This document shows positions 9,939 to 19,593 of a stretch of 22,883 bases of DNA, piece after piece. The position numbers and the translations under genes are program-made. Below the pieces are notes generated by a model. That model searched no databases, was not told the DNA's origin, and saw only the letters and a list, made by a program, of their open reading frames with translations. This stretch comes from a virus. Every line of letters starts with the position of its first letter. Position 1 is the stretch's first letter. Where the stretch lies: the IMG/VR virus record IMGVR_UViG_3300043438_000284, positions 1 to 22,883 of that record; one strand, 5' to 3'.

Positions 9939-9947
9939 TGGTATAAT
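9939..9947 (+). promoter_or_regulatory. Extended -10 promoter for the secreted proline-rich protein
   Basis: TGGTATAAT is a perfect extended -10 seven bases after the thioredoxin stop; no convincing -35 is seen at the right distance. The predicted start is near 9954, so the leader before ATT 9989 is about 35 bases and begins with the hairpin at 9951-9977. Confidence 0.6.
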
Positions 9948-9950
9948 AGT

Positions 9951-9977
9951 CTTGTTAGAGATAACCCCACTAACAAG
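9951..9977 (+). repeat. 8-bp inverted repeat at the mRNA 5' end, overlapping the ribosome site
   Basis: CTTGTTAG (9951-9958) and CTAACAAG (9970-9977) are exact inverted copies with an 11-base loop. The right arm covers the first three bases of the AAGGAG ribosome site (9975-9980). The predicted transcription start (about 9954) would trim the left arm by up to three bases. The hairpin could protect the 5' end or dampen translation. Confidence 0.6.
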
Positions 9978-9988
9978 GAGACCCCACA

Positions 9989-11392
9989 ATTAAAAAATTT
10001 TTATATTCAGCAATAGTCTTAGCTATATTTTCTTTATCATTACTTTGGCCAACTACTGCTAAAGCATCTACAACTGCAGTGTGCGACACCTATCAAGTCA
10101 ATGGTGGTGATCAAGCATTCTTGATGAATTTAAATACCCCACTAGAATTTGGTGGCACTGTATATAATGGTAACGTTTACATAAGTCCAAAAGGAACTAT
10201 AACTTTTGGTCAGGGTGATTATACTTTTTGGGATTATCCAGCAACACCATCCATATCAATTGGCTCATGGGACTATCACGCTTTTGCAAATGACGCAAGC
10301 TCTCAGTGGGATCCAGGATGGGGTATTGGCAAAGATTTATACGTTAAGTATGGATCAACAGCAACTTCTATTTGCGTTGACTGGAAAGTAATGGTTTGGG
10401 GTCAGTCTTCTGGAGACCCAGTCTATATTAGAATGTTAGCACAGGTAGATCCAGTAAACTATACTTGGACTCCAACCTATCAGGTAAGCTCTAATGCACC
10501 AGGAGGAGCTAGATATGGTGTTCGTTATACTCAGGGTGGTCAGGTATTTCCTTTAGAGATTCAGACAATAACTGAGCCACCAACACCAGAACCTACGATA
10601 GAGCCTACCCCAGAACCCACTCCAGAAGAGCCCACGCCTAGTCCTACGCCTACACCAGAGCCTTCCCCAGAAGAACCTACCCCAAGCCCCTCACCAACTC
10701 CAGAGCCGTCTCCAGAGCCCACGCCTGAGCCTAGTCCAACTCCCTCTCCAGTCGAACCTGTTGAACCTGTCGTGCCACCAACCAACCCAGTAGACCCAAC
10801 ACCAGAACCTTCCCTGGAGCCTGAGCCAGTAGTCCCGCCAGAAATACAGCCAGAGGAACCAGAGCAAGCAGTAACGCCAATTGAAGAACCTGAAGAATCT
10901 GTAGAACCTTCACCCGAATTAACTCCTTCTATTATAGAACCAGAAGAAGAGTCTATCACATCTGCGGAAGAATTACCAGTAGATATTTCTTCAGAAGAAC
11001 TTCTGAACATAGACCTAGATCAAATTGAAGCAACGGATCTTTCTGAGGATCAGGTAGAAGCACTTGTTGAAGCAGCCCTGGAAGTGTTTGAAACAGCAGA
11101 ACCAGGATCTGACGAATACGAACAAGCTCTTGACGCTCTATTCCTAGCAGCTGAAGCAGACGACATCGTATTAGATGAGGCCCTAGCAGCCATCCCGCTT
11201 CTTGGAGACGTTCTTGGTGGAGCCACAGAACTTGTTAACTTTCTTGGAAATGCGGGGGCAGACATGAGTCCAGAAGTTAGAGAAGACTCAGAAAAAGTAG
11301 TAGTTACAGCAATTGTTGCAGTGCAAGCAGCACTATCAGCAGTTTCTATAAGCGGTATAGCAACAACAGTTAATTTAAGAAATGGAGCATAA
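9989..11392 (+). CDS. Secreted proline-rich surface-type protein with an ATT start codon
   Basis: The first canonical in-frame start is GTG 10079, but the frame is open from 9974 and encodes a textbook signal peptide upstream. Reading from ATT 9989 gives (M)KKFLYSAIVLAIFSLSLLW, then PTTAKA with cleavage expected after A26. AAGGAG at 9975-9980 lies eight bases before the ATT, and no ATG, GTG or TTG exists in between. The 467-residue product has a beta-rich domain with many aromatics (about 27-190), a Pro/Glu/Thr/Ser linker (about 196-310) like wall-spanning spacers of Gram-positive surface proteins, an acidic helical region, and a hydrophobic segment near 437-461. The last could anchor it in the membrane. 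No lipobox or LPXTG motif is seen. It is probably exported by the host Sec system; the role (surface alteration, exclusion, adhesion) is unknown. Confidence 0.75.
   Translation: MKKFLYSAIVLAIFSLSLLWPTTAKASTTAVCDTYQVNGGDQAFLMNLNTPLEFGGTVYNGNVYISPKGTITFGQGDYTFWDYPATPSISIGSWDYHAFANDASSQWDPGWGIGKDLYVKYGSTATSICVDWKVMVWGQSSGDPVYIRMLAQVDPVNYTWTPTYQVSSNAPGGARYGVRYTQGGQVFPLEIQTITEPPTPEPTIEPTPEPTPEEPTPSPTPTPEPSPEEPTPSPSPTPEPSPEPTPEPSPTPSPVEPVEPVVPPTNPVDPTPEPSLEPEPVVPPEIQPEEPEQAVTPIEEPEESVEPSPELTPSIIEPEEESITSAEELPVDISSEELLNIDLDQIEATDLSEDQVEALVEAALEVFETAEPGSDEYEQALDALFLAAEADDIVLDEALAAIPLLGDVLGGATELVNFLGNAGADMSPEVREDSEKVVVTAIVAVQAALSAVSISGIATTVNLRNGA
10573..10830 (+). repeat. Degenerate Pro/Thr/Glu-coding repeat tract
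   Basis: Irregular repeats of codons for PTPEPT, PSPEEP and PTPSP units in the secreted protein. The bases vary at third positions, so selection seems to act on the peptide rather than the DNA. The same tract produces the long glycine/serine-rich shadow reading frame on the minus strand. Confidence 0.75.
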
Positions 11393-11393
11393 C

Positions 11394-11579
11394 ATGAAAT
11401 TCTTAACAGCATTAGCTAAGGACGTCATAGATCAAGCATGGACATTGCTTGGTATGGTCGTAGCTTGGCTTGTCCTTGAAGGTTCCGCTAAGGAACTTAC
11501 AGGAAACCTCATATTAATAACCCTATTAGTATGGATAGTAACATTTCCAATCTTTCGTTATGAAAAGGAGGATAAATAA
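11394..11579 (+). CDS. Small two-span membrane protein (holin candidate)
   Basis: 61 residues from ATG 11394, with GGAG at 11384-11387 six bases upstream; an in-frame ATG at 11382 lies before that site and is unlikely to be used. Two hydrophobic stretches, about residues 15-30 (WTLLGMVVAWLVL) and 37-53 (LILITLLVWIVTFPIF), are joined by a short charged turn, with a charged tail ending RYEKEDK. This is the size and layout of a class II holin. No lysin gene is adjacent; the lysins lie 3 kb downstream, so the call is tentative. Confidence 0.6.
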   Translation: MKFLTALAKDVIDQAWTLLGMVVAWLVLEGSAKELTGNLILITLLVWIVTFPIFRYEKEDK

Positions 11580-11581
11580 TC

Positions 11582-11860
11582 ATGGGAGGTAAAATGAAGC
11601 AACCAGCAGTAACGGGTGGTTTGGATACCATCATAAACATCTTTTGGAGAATTATAGCAGTATTTGCAGCATCAGGACTAACGGTCTTAGGTGCTGGAGC
11701 AGTCGTTGGTGTTGAGCTATGGGATGCTGTCTTTATGGCAGGTATTCTAGGCGTAGCCACAGTGATTGAAAAACTAGCTAGATCTTTCCTAGAAGATGGA
11801 AAGCTTACTATGTCAGAGATTAATGAAGCCTTTGCTAAGGTAGACAAAAACTCTAAGTAA
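11582..11860 (+). CDS. Holin-like membrane protein
   Basis: 92 residues from ATG 11582, where AAGGAGG at 11565-11571 lies ten bases upstream; ATG 11594 with GGAGG four bases before it is the alternative and would drop four residues. One or two membrane spans cover residues 17-65 (IINIFWRIIAVFAASGLTVL, then a Gly/Ala/Val-rich segment and a second hydrophobic stretch). A soluble acidic tail follows. The layout recalls the r1t-type holins of actinophages. Together with the 61-residue gene before it, it could form a holin/antiholin pair. It ends seven bases before a strong promoter. Confidence 0.6.
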   Translation: MGGKMKQPAVTGGLDTIINIFWRIIAVFAASGLTVLGAGAVVGVELWDAVFMAGILGVATVIEKLARSFLEDGKLTMSEINEAFAKVDKNSK

Positions 11861-11867
11861 GCAATAG

Positions 11868-11896
11868 TTGACAGTCCCCTCTGGGTAGTGTATAAT
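11868..11896 (+). promoter_or_regulatory. Perfect consensus sigma-70/SigA promoter
   Basis: TTGACA at 11868-11873, a 17-base spacer and TATAAT at 11891-11896 match the consensus at all 12 positions. This is the best promoter in the window. Transcription should start near 11903. It also rules out ATG 11895 as the start of the next gene, since that codon lies within the -10. Confidence 0.9.
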
Positions 11897-12849: not shown

Positions 12850-12921
12850 TGATCCATAGCTCAACGGCAGAGCAGAGAGCTGTTAACTCTAAGGTTCCTG
12901 GTTCGAATCCAGGTGGGTCAG
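12850..12921 (+). tRNA. tRNA-Asn (anticodon GTT)
   Basis: Cloverleaf: acceptor TGATCCA (12850-12856) with TGGGTCA (12914-12920, one T-G pair), D stem GCTC/GAGC, anticodon loop CTGTTAA with GTT at 12882-12884, T stem CCTGG/CCAGG with loop TTCGAAT, and discriminator G. Position 27-43 is a G-A mismatch. CCA is not encoded. Confidence 0.93.
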
Positions 12922-12926
12922 CTAAT

Positions 12927-12975
12927 GGTGTGGTCCATACCACTCTCAAGGGTAGAAGAGATAAAAATGGACACC
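12927..12975 (+). repeat. Hairpin-forming spacer between tRNA-Asn and tRNA-Gly
   Basis: GGTGT + TCCAT (12927-12931 and 12934-12938, two-base bulge between) pairs with ATGGACACC (12967-12975). The enclosed loop is 28 bases. The structure starts 5 bases after one tRNA and ends one base before the next, so it fills the spacer. Confidence 0.5.
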
Positions 12976-12976
12976 A

Positions 12977-13047
12977 GTGACTATCGCATAATGGTAGTGT
13001 GTAACCTTGCCAAGGTTAATGTGCGAGTTCAATTCTCGCTAGTCACT
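12977..13047 (+). tRNA. tRNA-Gly (anticodon GCC)
   Basis: Acceptor GTGACTA (12977-12983) with TAGTCAC (13040-13046) pairs perfectly. Anticodon stem TAACC/GGTTA with loop TTGCCAA (GCC at 13009-13011), T stem GCGAG/CTCGC with loop TTCAATT, discriminator T. The D stem contains two G-T pairs. CCA is not encoded. Confidence 0.93.
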
Positions 13048-13049
13048 CT

Positions 13050-13097
13050 GAGAGTATCCTAGCATGACTCATAAGAACCATTTCACTGGATGCTCTC
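13050..13097 (+). repeat. Hairpin-forming spacer between tRNA-Gly and tRNA-Asp
   Basis: GAGAGTATCC (13050-13059) pairs with GGATGCTCTC (13088-13097) over 10 bp with a single T-G wobble, again enclosing exactly 28 bases. It occupies the spacer from 2 bases after tRNA-Gly to 4 bases before tRNA-Asp. It is too short for a tRNA and lacks a T arm. Confidence 0.55.
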
Positions 13098-13101
13098 TTT
13101 A

Positions 13102-13175
13102 GGCTCTGTAGCTCAGTTGGTTAGAGCACTACCCTGTCACGGTAGGGGTCGCCAGTTCAAGTCTGGTCAGAGTCG
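13102..13175 (+). tRNA. tRNA-Asp (anticodon GTC)
   Basis: Acceptor GGCTCTG (13102-13108) with CAGAGTC (13168-13174, one G-T pair), D stem GCTC/GAGC, anticodon stem CTACC/GGTAG with loop CTGTCAC (GTC at 13136-13138), T stem GCCAG/CTGGT with loop TTCAAGT, discriminator G. CCA is not encoded. Confidence 0.94.
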
Positions 13176-13193
13176 CAAGGAAAGAGGTATTCT

Positions 13194-13937
13194 ATGGGTA
13201 AGCAAGAGATAATACTTAACAGGTTGTTGCCTGGCCCTCCAGTGTTTCCAGTAGTTCCATTAACAGCAAAAAGAAACTGGATGGATGACTCAAGGGATAA
13301 ATTTGCTTATAAGTGTATACCATTAAATATTGCTAATCAGTATGGCTATACAGTTTTGTGTCCAGCAGACTTCACTTTAGACTGGTATGGAGGGGTAGAA
13401 GAAAAAGATGTTGACTTCCAGGTAACATCTGAAGAAGAATATTTTAAAGATCACCTTCATAGTTATTTTGGTGGTGGAACTTTTACTATACATCTAGATT
13501 TTATTATAAGAACTCCAGAAGGTTTTTCAACTTACATTCGTGGAGTTCCTAATGAAACAAAGCAGGGACTTAAACCGTTAGATGCCATTGTTGAAACTGA
13601 TTGGCTATCCTATACTTTTACCTACAACTTTCTTCTTACAGAACCAGGCAGCTATAGCTTTAAAAAGGGTGAGCCCCTGTTTGTATTTTTTCCAATTGAA
13701 AGAGCAACTGTAGAAAAGTTTAAACTAAAAGAATCTAGAATAGAAGAAGACACAGAACTGTCAACAGACTTTGAAGACTATCATCGTAAAAGAATAAAAG
13801 CAATTTCGGTGCCAATAACAAAGCCAGTGTTTCAAAACTTTTATAGAAATGGGACAAAAGCATCTGGAGAAAAAGTCAGTATAAAAAACCACATTACAAA
13901 CTTGATTTTTGGTGGTAAGCGTGGTAAGATTAACTAA
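13194..13937 (+). CDS. DUF6065-type protein
   Basis: 247 residues lying between tRNA-Asp and tRNA-Thr. The order FAYKCIPLNIANQYGY, then FTLDWYGG, SYFGGGTFTIHL, the IRTPEGF segment, GVPNETKQGLKPLDAIVETDW and FTYNFLL matches the family I know as DUF6065, which occurs in bacteria and some phages and has no assigned activity. It is predicted to be beta-rich, cytosolic, and without a signal peptide. GGAAAGAGG at 13179-13187 is a strong ribosome site. Its insertion within the tRNA cluster suggests a cargo gene that entered or moved with the tRNAs. No catalytic residues can be named with confidence. Confidence 0.7.
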   Translation: MGKQEIILNRLLPGPPVFPVVPLTAKRNWMDDSRDKFAYKCIPLNIANQYGYTVLCPADFTLDWYGGVEEKDVDFQVTSEEEYFKDHLHSYFGGGTFTIHLDFIIRTPEGFSTYIRGVPNETKQGLKPLDAIVETDWLSYTFTYNFLLTEPGSYSFKKGEPLFVFFPIERATVEKFKLKESRIEEDTELSTDFEDYHRKRIKAISVPITKPVFQNFYRNGTKASGEKVSIKNHITNLIFGGKRGKIN

Positions 13938-13941
13938 TAAT

Positions 13942-14014
13942 GCCTCTATAGCTCATCTGGTAGAGCGACGCACTTGTAATGCGTAGGTGACGGGTTCAAG
14001 TCCTGTTGGAGGCT
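13942..14014 (+). tRNA. tRNA-Thr (anticodon TGT)
   Basis: Acceptor GCCTCTA (13942-13948) with TGGAGGC (14007-14013, one T-G pair), anticodon stem ACGCA/TGCGT with loop CTTGTAA (TGT at 13975-13977), T stem ACGGG/CCTGT with loop TTCAAGT, discriminator T. It begins four bases after the DUF6065-type stop. CCA is not encoded. Confidence 0.94.
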
Positions 14015-14021
14015 CTGATTA

Positions 14022-14030
14022 TGATATAAT
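14022..14030 (+). promoter_or_regulatory. Extended -10 promoter for Hsp20
   Basis: TGATATAAT is a perfect extended -10 eight bases after tRNA-Thr; no clear -35, since that position lies within the tRNA. The expected start is near 14037, giving a 53-base leader. Confidence 0.65.
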
Positions 14031-14041
14031 TTATATACCTG

Positions 14042-14054
14042 CCCCGTAAAGGGG
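14042..14054 (+). other. GC-rich hairpin in the Hsp20 leader
   Basis: CCCC (14042-14045) and GGGG (14051-14054) with a GTAAA loop lie about six bases from the predicted mRNA 5' end. No T tract follows, so it is not a terminator. The ribosome site AAGGAG (14078-14083) lies outside it and is not paired by it. Confidence 0.6.
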
Positions 14055-14089
14055 AGGAACAAGATAACTCGCTGAAAAGGAGAAATAAC

Positions 14090-14485
14090 ATGGTAACAAC
14101 ATTTACTACGGAGTTCTTAAAAGATCCGTTTTTTAATATGGGTTTGAATACCCTGGCAGCACCAAAACCTAGCTATCCACCATACAATATTGTAAAGATT
14201 GACGAAGATACTTTGGTCATGGAATTTGCGGTAGCTGGATTTAAAAGGGATGAGATCAGTGTTACAACTGAAAAGAATGTCCTAACTATCAAGTCAACAA
14301 AAGATGATTCTGACGATAAGGAATACCTGCACAAAGGTATTGCTGCTCGTAAGTTTACTCGTTCTTTTACACTACCTGAATATTTTGAGGTAGATGGAGC
14401 AACAGTTGACAATGGCATTCTATACATTAATCTAATTAGGAATATTCCAGAAGAGAAGAAGCCTAAAGTAATTAATATCAAGTAA
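14090..14485 (+). CDS. Small heat shock protein, Hsp20/alpha-crystallin family
   Basis: 131 residues. After a short N-terminal arm (1-35) comes the alpha-crystallin beta sandwich: VMEFAVAGFKRDEISV, then VLTIKSTK, RKFTRSFTLPE, and VDNGILYINL. It ends with INI inside KVINIK, the I-x-I motif that docks between subunits. These proteins bind unfolding proteins without ATP. Small heat shock proteins of this kind recur in aquatic phages, where they may guard capsid or scaffold proteins. It has its own promoter and a strong AAGGAG site. It looks complete and intact. Confidence 0.93.
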   Translation: MVTTFTTEFLKDPFFNMGLNTLAAPKPSYPPYNIVKIDEDTLVMEFAVAGFKRDEISVTTEKNVLTIKSTKDDSDDKEYLHKGIAARKFTRSFTLPEYFEVDGATVDNGILYINLIRNIPEEKKPKVINIK

Positions 14486-14528: not shown

Positions 14529-14537
14529 TGATATAAT
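14529..14537 (+). promoter_or_regulatory. Extended -10 promoter for the M23-type lysin
   Basis: TGATATAAT is a perfect extended -10. TTGATA (14504-14509) is a good -35 sequence, but 22 bases away, which is too far for normal use. Transcription would begin near 14544. Confidence 0.65.
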
Positions 14538-14543
14538 AGAGTT

Positions 14544-14557
14544 ATGCTGAAAAGCAT
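14544..14557 (+). other. 5'-terminal GNRA-loop hairpin in the lysin leader
   Basis: ATGCT-GAAA-AGCAT is an exact 5-bp stem with a GAAA tetraloop. Its first base coincides with the predicted transcription start, so the mRNA would begin as a hairpin, an arrangement known to slow 5'-end decay. The ribosome site AAGGAG lies downstream and is free. Confidence 0.6.
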
Positions 14558-14580
14558 TTAACCCTATAAGGAGATTTAAT

Positions 14581-15267
14581 ATGACAACTTGGATTAGGCC
14601 AGTAGATGGCGGATCAATTTCGGATAGCTTTAACGGACACAAGAATCGTGCAAAGCCTTCAGTAAACCCAGGAGTTGACTACGCTGTTGCTACTGGAACA
14701 CCAGCAAAAGCCGTTGCTGACGGAACTGTTATTAATACTGTTCCAACCTTTGCTGGTGCTGGTGGACGCATGGTCTTCCTAAGCTTCCCATCAGGCCACA
14801 CCGCAGACTACCTACACCTTTCACGTATTGACGTACAGCCAGGACAAGCAGTAAAACAGGGTCAAGTAATTGGCTTAACTGGTGGCTCAGGTCTTGGCAA
14901 AGAAAACGGATATGGTGCACACCTTCACTTCTCATTCCGAGTTGGCGGTAAGCCGACAATGGGTGCTGGAAACATTGACTACGAAGCTTTCCGTGGAGCA
15001 CCTACAAGTGCTGCACCTGCCACCCCTGCAGCTCCAGCAAAGGCACCTGCTGCATCTGCTAGCGGAGCAAGGCCTTATCCTGGCAAAGAGCTTTTCAAAG
15101 GCTCTCCAGCAGGTCCAGACCTTGCTTATCTACAAAGCAAACTAGGCGTAAATCCCCCTGGCCCATTTGGTCCAAAGACTCACGCTGCTGTTGTTGCTTT
15201 TCAGGCTTCCAAGGGACTAAAGGCTGACGGCATTGTCGGCCCTTTAACTTGGTCCAAACTAAACTAA
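14581..15267 (+). CDS. Endolysin: M23-type peptidase domain plus peptidoglycan-binding domain
   Basis: 228 residues. Residues 8-140 follow the LytM/M23 layout: a VNPGVDYA motif with D33, ADGTV, YLHLS with H79, a GQVIGLTGGSG loop and GAHLHF with H114/H116. A proline/alanine linker (141-165) leads to a peptidoglycan-binding repeat (about 170-228, YLQSKLG to GIVGPLTWSKL). M23 enzymes cut the peptide cross-links of peptidoglycan with zinc. The first zinc ligand is altered: the His of HxGxD is N29. Relatives in actinophages also vary here, so activity is uncertain. There is no signal peptide, so release would need a holin. The ribosome site is AAGGAG, and the gene has its own promoter. Confidence 0.85.
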   Translation: MTTWIRPVDGGSISDSFNGHKNRAKPSVNPGVDYAVATGTPAKAVADGTVINTVPTFAGAGGRMVFLSFPSGHTADYLHLSRIDVQPGQAVKQGQVIGLTGGSGLGKENGYGAHLHFSFRVGGKPTMGAGNIDYEAFRGAPTSAAPATPAAPAKAPAASASGARPYPGKELFKGSPAGPDLAYLQSKLGVNPPGPFGPKTHAAVVAFQASKGLKADGIVGPLTWSKLN

Positions 15268-19308: not shown

Positions 19309-19593
19309 ATGCAAAACCAATCATGGAAAGACAAGGCTGCATGTCTTGGAGAAGAAACAAATGATTACTTTGATAATTATGAAGAAGATCTTGAACTAAG
19401 GCCTATAGTAGATAAAGTTTGTAGGGAGTGTCCAGTGAGAAAAATGTGTTTTGCTGCAGGGGTTTCTGGAAAAGAAACTGGAGTTTGGGGTGGAGTTTAT
19501 TTTGAACAAGGAGACATATCTAGGGAATTTAATAGACATAAAGCCAAAGAGGGCTGGGCAAAAACCTGGCAAGCACTAACAACGGATAGCTAA
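19309..19593 (+). CDS. WhiB-family iron-sulfur regulator
   Basis: 94 residues with the full WhiB set: C12, C38xxC41xxxxxC47, and GVWGG at 58-62. The cysteines hold a 4Fe-4S cluster; the glycine/tryptophan turn contacts sigma factor SigA. The family is found only in Actinobacteria and their phages, so this is the strongest host signal in the window. Phage WhiB proteins can rewire host transcription or block host WhiB2 function. The C-terminal tail (HKAKEGWAK) is basic but lacks a clear DNA-binding AT-hook. It may act on the many SigA-type promoters of this phage; that is inference. Confidence 0.95.
   Translation: MQNQSWKDKAACLGEETNDYFDNYEEDLELRPIVDKVCRECPVRKMCFAAGVSGKETGVWGGVYFEQGDISREFNRHKAKEGWAKTWQALTTDS

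Follow-up and report, generated by a model that had tools for sequence, protein, structure and literature searches.

Very few characterised genes start outside ATG, GTG and TTG. The infC gene of E. coli starts with ATT and is autoregulated by IF3, and in phage lambda the ratio of holin to antiholin (S105/S107) is controlled through two ATG starts within one gene. It has been reported that sigR of Streptomyces has a GTC start that is repressed by IF3, and that infC of the same genus starts with ATC (PMC5472188). A search of the open-access literature returned no case of a phage gene with an ATT (AUU) start and no report of a start of this class conserved across a virus family. The gene described here, designated SP, lies in a window of 22,883 nt (positions 1 to 22,883 of the IMG/VR virus record IMGVR_UViG_3300043438_000284, which is the whole stretch of DNA analysed). 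SP resembles sigR in its actinobacterial translation (likely, in the case of the phage), in the combination of a strong ribosome site with a conserved codon outside ATG, GTG and TTG, in a start that canonical callers misplace, and in being the first of a gene pair whose partner would be translationally coupled; it differs in that sigR encodes a cellular sigma factor with one fixed codon, whereas SP encodes a probable phage membrane protein whose start turns over among ATT, ATC, ATA, GTT and TTG. In infC, as probably in SP, AUU or AUC initiation is a selected state, but infC encodes IF3 and closes a feedback loop, while SP encodes no translation factor. The likeness to lambda S105/S107 lies in translation starts close to a holin, whose tuning would fix the ratio in which a membrane protein is produced; unlike in that system, SP has a gene of its own, is exported and starts with a non-ATG codon, and an antiholin function for it is a guess.

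The phage context of the window points to an actinobacterial host. The terminase large subunit is 54–56% identical to those of large Streptomyces siphophages (the Anedea, Bmoc, NootNoot group), and a WhiB-like protein, recognised by eye, is encoded at 19309–19593; from these two features together, the host is likely an actinobacterium, and the virus family that carries SP probably infects freshwater actinobacteria. The replication genes show partial synteny with phages of the same group, which are kin in terminase and replication genes, yet no relative of SP was found in sequenced phage records. In the window, the SP frame sits 3' of the ribonucleotide reductase and thioredoxin genes. The features of the locus are collected in Table 1.

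Table 1. Coordinates of the SP locus and of two control leaders in the window.
Feature	Position	Strand	Evidence or remark
Extended -10, TG-g-TATAAT	9939–9947	+	Sequence; TATAAT in nearly all leader-type relatives
Predicted transcript start	about 9952–9957	+	
5' stem-loop, CTTGTTAG (9951–9958) / CTAACAAG (9970–9977)	9951–9977	+	RNA folding of leaders
In-frame TAA closing the SP frame 5'	9971–9973	+	
Shine-Dalgarno AAGGAG	9975–9980	+	8-nt spacer to ATT
ATT, putative start codon	9989–9991	+	Non-ATG/GTG start at the homologous place in 53/59 distinct contexts
Signal peptide, (M)KKFLYSAIVLAIFSLSLLWPTTAKA	9989–10066	+	Sequence; pN/pS
GTG, start given by gene callers	10079–10081	+	Not conserved
SP gene, 467 aa	9989–11392	+	Stop 11390–11392
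hol1, small membrane protein, holin-like by context	11394–11579	+	ATG one base past the SP stop (TAAcATG)
hol2, holin-like membrane protein	11582–11860	+	Weak match to phrog_443 holin, E=0.0036
Control leader: TATAAT, hairpin CCCCgtaaaGGGG, AAGGAG, ATG 14090 of Hsp20-like gene	14025–14092	+	
Control leader: TATAAT, hairpin ATGCTgaaaAGCAT, AAGGAG, ATG 14581 of M23 peptidase gene	14532–14583	+	

The initial annotation had placed the start of a secreted phage protein at this ATT, with AAGGAG eight bases before it, a signal peptide with an AxA site, and a 5' stretch of the frame devoid of usual start codons. Re-reading of the sequence bears out each of these points: the SP frame contains zero ATG, GTG or TTG codons between the TAA at 9971 and the GTG at 10079, the ribosome site has the claimed spacing, and translation from ATT 9989 gives (M)KKFLYSAIVLAIFSLSLLWPTTAKA, followed by cleavage and then STTAVCD. 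This N-terminus comprises a charged n-region, a hydrophobic core with a 19-residue Kyte-Doolittle maximum of 1.82, and an AKA cleavage motif of the AxA type, so that all hallmarks of a Sec signal peptide are present as judged from sequence. A hydrophobic core was found in all 47 full-length SP proteins examined, and the N-terminal 19-residue hydropathy maximum has a mean of 2.04 over 47 full-length relatives. In the clade of the window, pN/pS is 0.51 over codons 2–29 versus 0.03 in the next stretch, which belongs to the mature part; changes in the signal-peptide codons are mainly silent or conservative, and variable columns favour the third codon position in most clades, the exception being the L153 clade, where codon positions 1, 2 and 3 have 19, 11 and 16 of them. 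These patterns indicate a signal peptide that is loosely constrained yet under selection, and ATT 9989 is the sole plausible start of the 467-residue signal-peptide protein.

Alignment of relatives at the start site confirmed that a non-ATG codon is conserved in position. A search of viral contigs gave 79 loci, and a second search with a distant member as query gave 17 loci that partially overlap with the 79; the start regions were read for each locus, and identical contexts were merged into 59 distinct contexts. The start is ATT in 27 of these, ATC in 6, ATA in 1, GTT in 8, TTG in 11, GTG in 3 and ATG in 3; that is, it lies outside ATG, GTG and TTG in 42/59 and is neither ATG nor GTG in 53/59. 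The odd codon stands at proper Shine-Dalgarno spacing in every clade. For instance, one aligned codon in L153–L160 is ATC, ATA or ATT, always within AGG RAA ATH, and in L163–L165, which have another exported domain and the same C-terminal domain, ATT follows AGGAG. In the GTT clade, where the initiating codon was assigned by Shine-Dalgarno spacing and by the conserved codons that follow, these codons (Lys/Asn-Lys-Arg-Leu-Lys-Ile-Arg) are kept through silent changes, and the sisters of this clade, L014 and L018, have ATT at an equal distance from GGAG. The ectodomain tree requires at least 20 start-codon changes, some of which may reflect recombination between leaders and ectodomains. ATT, whose rarity as a start was stressed in the initial annotation, is not as such what is kept, since ATC, ATA, GTT and TTG replace it in the family, and the conserved property of the SP start would be its weakness. 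The comparison of relatives shows the position of the start, the conservation of its non-ATG character and the turnover among weak codons, and on these comparative grounds it is near certain that SP is initiated at a non-ATG codon.

Upstream of the start, an exact TATAAT, often with a TG extension, is found 37–53 nt before the start in nearly all operon-heading copies, directly followed by a hairpin and then by a strong ribosome site; exact TATAAT is missing in five TTG copies (L009, L033, L041, L048 and L050). In the window, the hairpin is located at the predicted 5' end of the transcript, directly 3' of the extended -10. The stems have completely different sequences between clades and lie at the same place, so it is the hairpin and not the stem sequence that is conserved. 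The initial annotation had described this hairpin as overlapping the ribosome site and had taken it as a sign that expression may be held low. The inverted repeat itself is real, its overlap is restricted to the AAG of the site, and its use as evidence of repression fails: a leader of identical type precedes the late genes that start with ATG at 14090 and 14581, and the hairpin was accordingly rejected as a specific repressor of SP. Another late gene in relatives likewise has TATAAT, a 5' hairpin and a ribosome site with ATG. The hairpin is probably a general 5' stabiliser of late mRNA or a late leader, and since other late genes combine this leader design with ATG, the odd codon is a property of SP. 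Shared late-gene leaders were also seen in L014, L019, L053, L067 and others, with hairpins of up to about -19 kcal/mol.

Neighbouring genes in the same loci start in the usual way. ATG is used at 14/14 distinct sites of thioredoxin, 11/11 of ribonucleotide reductase, 13/13 of the nuclease, 28/28 of hol2 and 19/20 of hol1, and the terminase starts with TTG and GTG, which is ordinary usage. When 732 long open frames were scanned for those that have a strong ribosome site before a non-canonical codon and lack a canonical start early in the frame, 22 were flagged, 15 of which are the SP gene; the remaining seven look antisense or non-coding, and no other convincing gene was found among the 732. 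A phage-encoded initiator tRNA for AUU was also considered and rejected. The tRNAs of the window are for Asn, Gly, Asp and Thr, the tRNA-Met(CAT) of L026, L028 and L054 resembles an elongator, with G1 and C72 paired at its acceptor end, and no tRNA able to serve as an unusual initiator was found in the window or among the tRNAs of relatives examined. The window tRNA genes, Asn(gtt), Gly(gcc), Asp(gtc) and Thr(tgt), lie within 12850–14015, and tRNA-Asn is the most broadly retained of them among relatives.

SP is linked to lysis genes in the order SP-hol1-hol2, an operon that it heads in the window and that the initial annotation did not note, or in the order hol2-SP-hol1, often near an M23 peptidase; the identity of the holins rests on this context and on the weak phrog_443 match. 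The hol2 frame also strongly matches PHROG 26427 (E=6.9e-27), whose label 'nuclease' looks wrong for a holin-like protein. The order and the start codon go together. Where SP comes first, the start is ATT, ATC, ATA, GTT or TTG; the order hol2-SP-hol1 is found in six genomes (L007, L062, L161, L167, L168 and L169), and all six ATG- or GTG-started SP copies are from these genomes and are without TATAAT. The comparison shows the operon order and the lack of ATG and GTG in leader-type SP copies. The ribosome sites differ as well: median Shine-Dalgarno pairing is about -5.7 kcal/mol in the ATG/GTG copies (n=6) versus -8.3 kcal/mol in the non-canonical ones (n=42), with p=0.001 being indicative only, as related sequences are not independent and the canonical copies number six; ordinary window genes have -5.8 kcal/mol. 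These values assume the standard actinobacterial anti-Shine-Dalgarno tail, a further reason to take p as indicative. According to these medians, weak codons stand behind strong ribosome sites and strong codons behind weaker ones, as though SP initiation as a whole were kept close to a fixed level.

The protein encoded by SP in the window consists of the signal peptide, a beta-rich ectodomain (about residues 32–196), a Pro-rich linker and a helical C-terminal domain, with a hydrophobic segment near residues 437–455. Because of this C-terminal hydrophobic segment, together with a basic C-terminal tail in many relatives, SP is probably a type I membrane protein that is anchored rather than freely secreted; the export signal claimed by the initial annotation stands, and free secretion probably does not. 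In some relatives, the beta-rich exported domain is swapped for unrelated domains, and the C-terminal domain is conserved, which suggests ectodomain swapping. In L163–L169, the C-terminal domain (GADMSPxVRE) is joined to unrelated exported domains in different phages. The window protein had no hit in Pfam or PHROGs, its AlphaFold2 model (mean pLDDT 56) was too poor to assign a fold, a Foldseek search of the PDB returned no significant match, and cellular relatives were absent from the genome contigs searched. The most natural guess for the role of SP is a lysis-associated one, e.g., as an exported holin partner; an alternative guess is that SP is displayed on the infected cell and blocks superinfection.

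We consider it reasonably probable that, as a whole, a selected weak start on a strong late leader keeps the exported membrane protein SP scarce. Ribosomes would begin SP at ATT 9989 using initiator fMet-tRNA, and the product would be exported and probably anchored by its C-terminal hydrophobic segment. SP would head the operon SP-hol1-hol2 under a strong extended -10 late promoter, and the transcript would open with a 5' hairpin that stabilises it and would bear a strong Shine-Dalgarno. Selection would have kept the non-ATG codon as a weak start, so that little SP is made in comparison with its plentiful mRNA and with the holin-like proteins translated from that mRNA. Discrimination by IF3 is the likely physical basis of the weak start, with Streptomyces sigR and infC as precedents, and a low level of SP may be useful if a membrane or lysis-linked protein is harmful or mistimed in excess. 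Turnover among weak codons, with ATG and GTG only in the rearranged operon, is what is expected of selection for a low initiation rate, and the earlier proposal that expression is held low on purpose has become probable, weak codons being kept across relatives. The SP family offers a natural experiment with many replicates, in which start codons changed repeatedly and ATG was avoided, and a contrast set, in which altered gene order accompanies ATG or GTG; the evolutionary use of weak initiation is therefore directly testable in it.

Two other readings of the weak codon are possible but doubtful, and about equally so. In the first, the AUH/GUU start would tie SP, and perhaps the coupled holin, to the ratio of IF3 to ribosomes, with translation rising at a particular stage of infection. 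The SP codons are mainly of the class rejected by IF3, and in Streptomyces, whose infC has ATC, IF3 is proven to repress sigR through its GTC start (PMC5472188). However, members of the family do not all use IF3-discriminated codons: TTG, which is tolerated by IF3, occurs in 11/59 contexts, also upstream of holin-like genes, and ATG or GTG in 6/59; no reason is known for a change in IF3 during these infections. Because TTG copies exist, it is weakness that appears to be kept and not IF3 sensing. It is a little less likely still that IF3-discriminated starts gate the holin-linked operon, so that lysis timing tracks the IF3-to-ribosome state of the host; if true, an IF3-gated SP operon would be a viral counterpart of the infC and sigR circuits. 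In the second reading, the target of the throttle could be the holin and not SP: the weak SP start would throttle hol1 by termination-reinitiation and delay lysis, with the amount of SP being secondary. In nearly all copies, the SP stop adjoins or overlaps the start codon that follows (TAAcATG, ATGA, TAATG, TAAATG), and SP lies beside holin-like genes, often close to the M23 peptidase. Against this, many of the genes that follow carry a Shine-Dalgarno of their own (AGGAGG) within the 3' end of SP, and the hol2-SP-hol1 genomes mostly keep the abutment, yet start SP with ATG or GTG.

Explanations that dispense with a selected weak start fare far worse. Recoding, in which ribosomes would start at a canonical codon upstream, out of frame with SP, and then shift into the SP frame, is very improbable: the window leader does contain a TTG frame of 13 codons (9952–9993), but it is lost in relatives (a stop after three codons in L044, a different register in L010), the upstream start is not conserved, and the odd codon keeps its Shine-Dalgarno spacing throughout. 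Still less credible is a protein without the signal peptide, begun at GTG 10079 or at some canonical codon further downstream. An open reading frame list limited to ATG, GTG and TTG yields that call, and the initial annotation was right to dismiss it: no Shine-Dalgarno is seen before this GTG, its position is occupied by GTC, GTT or other codons in relatives, 15 distinct relatives have zero ATG, GTG or TTG from the upstream stop to the conserved Cys of the mature domain, and the signal-peptide codons are under selection. In addition, the homologues with ATG or GTG starts were checked and encode full signal peptides, with no signal-peptide-less GTG form among them. Calling genes by ATG, GTG and TTG only would strip the signal peptides from a whole protein family, with loss of the export signal and, in some relatives, of the first ~50 residues. 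A sequencing or assembly error of ATG to ATT, which has nothing in its favour except rarity, is refuted by ATT, ATC, ATA or GTT at this place in tens of contigs from different metagenomes.

Start assignment was also reconsidered elsewhere. The first-ATG call of hol1 at 11382 is probably wrong, and relatives point to the ATG at 11394. Similarly, the frame of an HslV/proteasome-like protease probably starts at ATG 11928 (MTCIAAIKANGKVYMAGDRG) and not at 11895, and relatives align from 11928. In L022 (5900–6001), the SP start region looks rearranged or misassembled, and part of the gene is duplicated.
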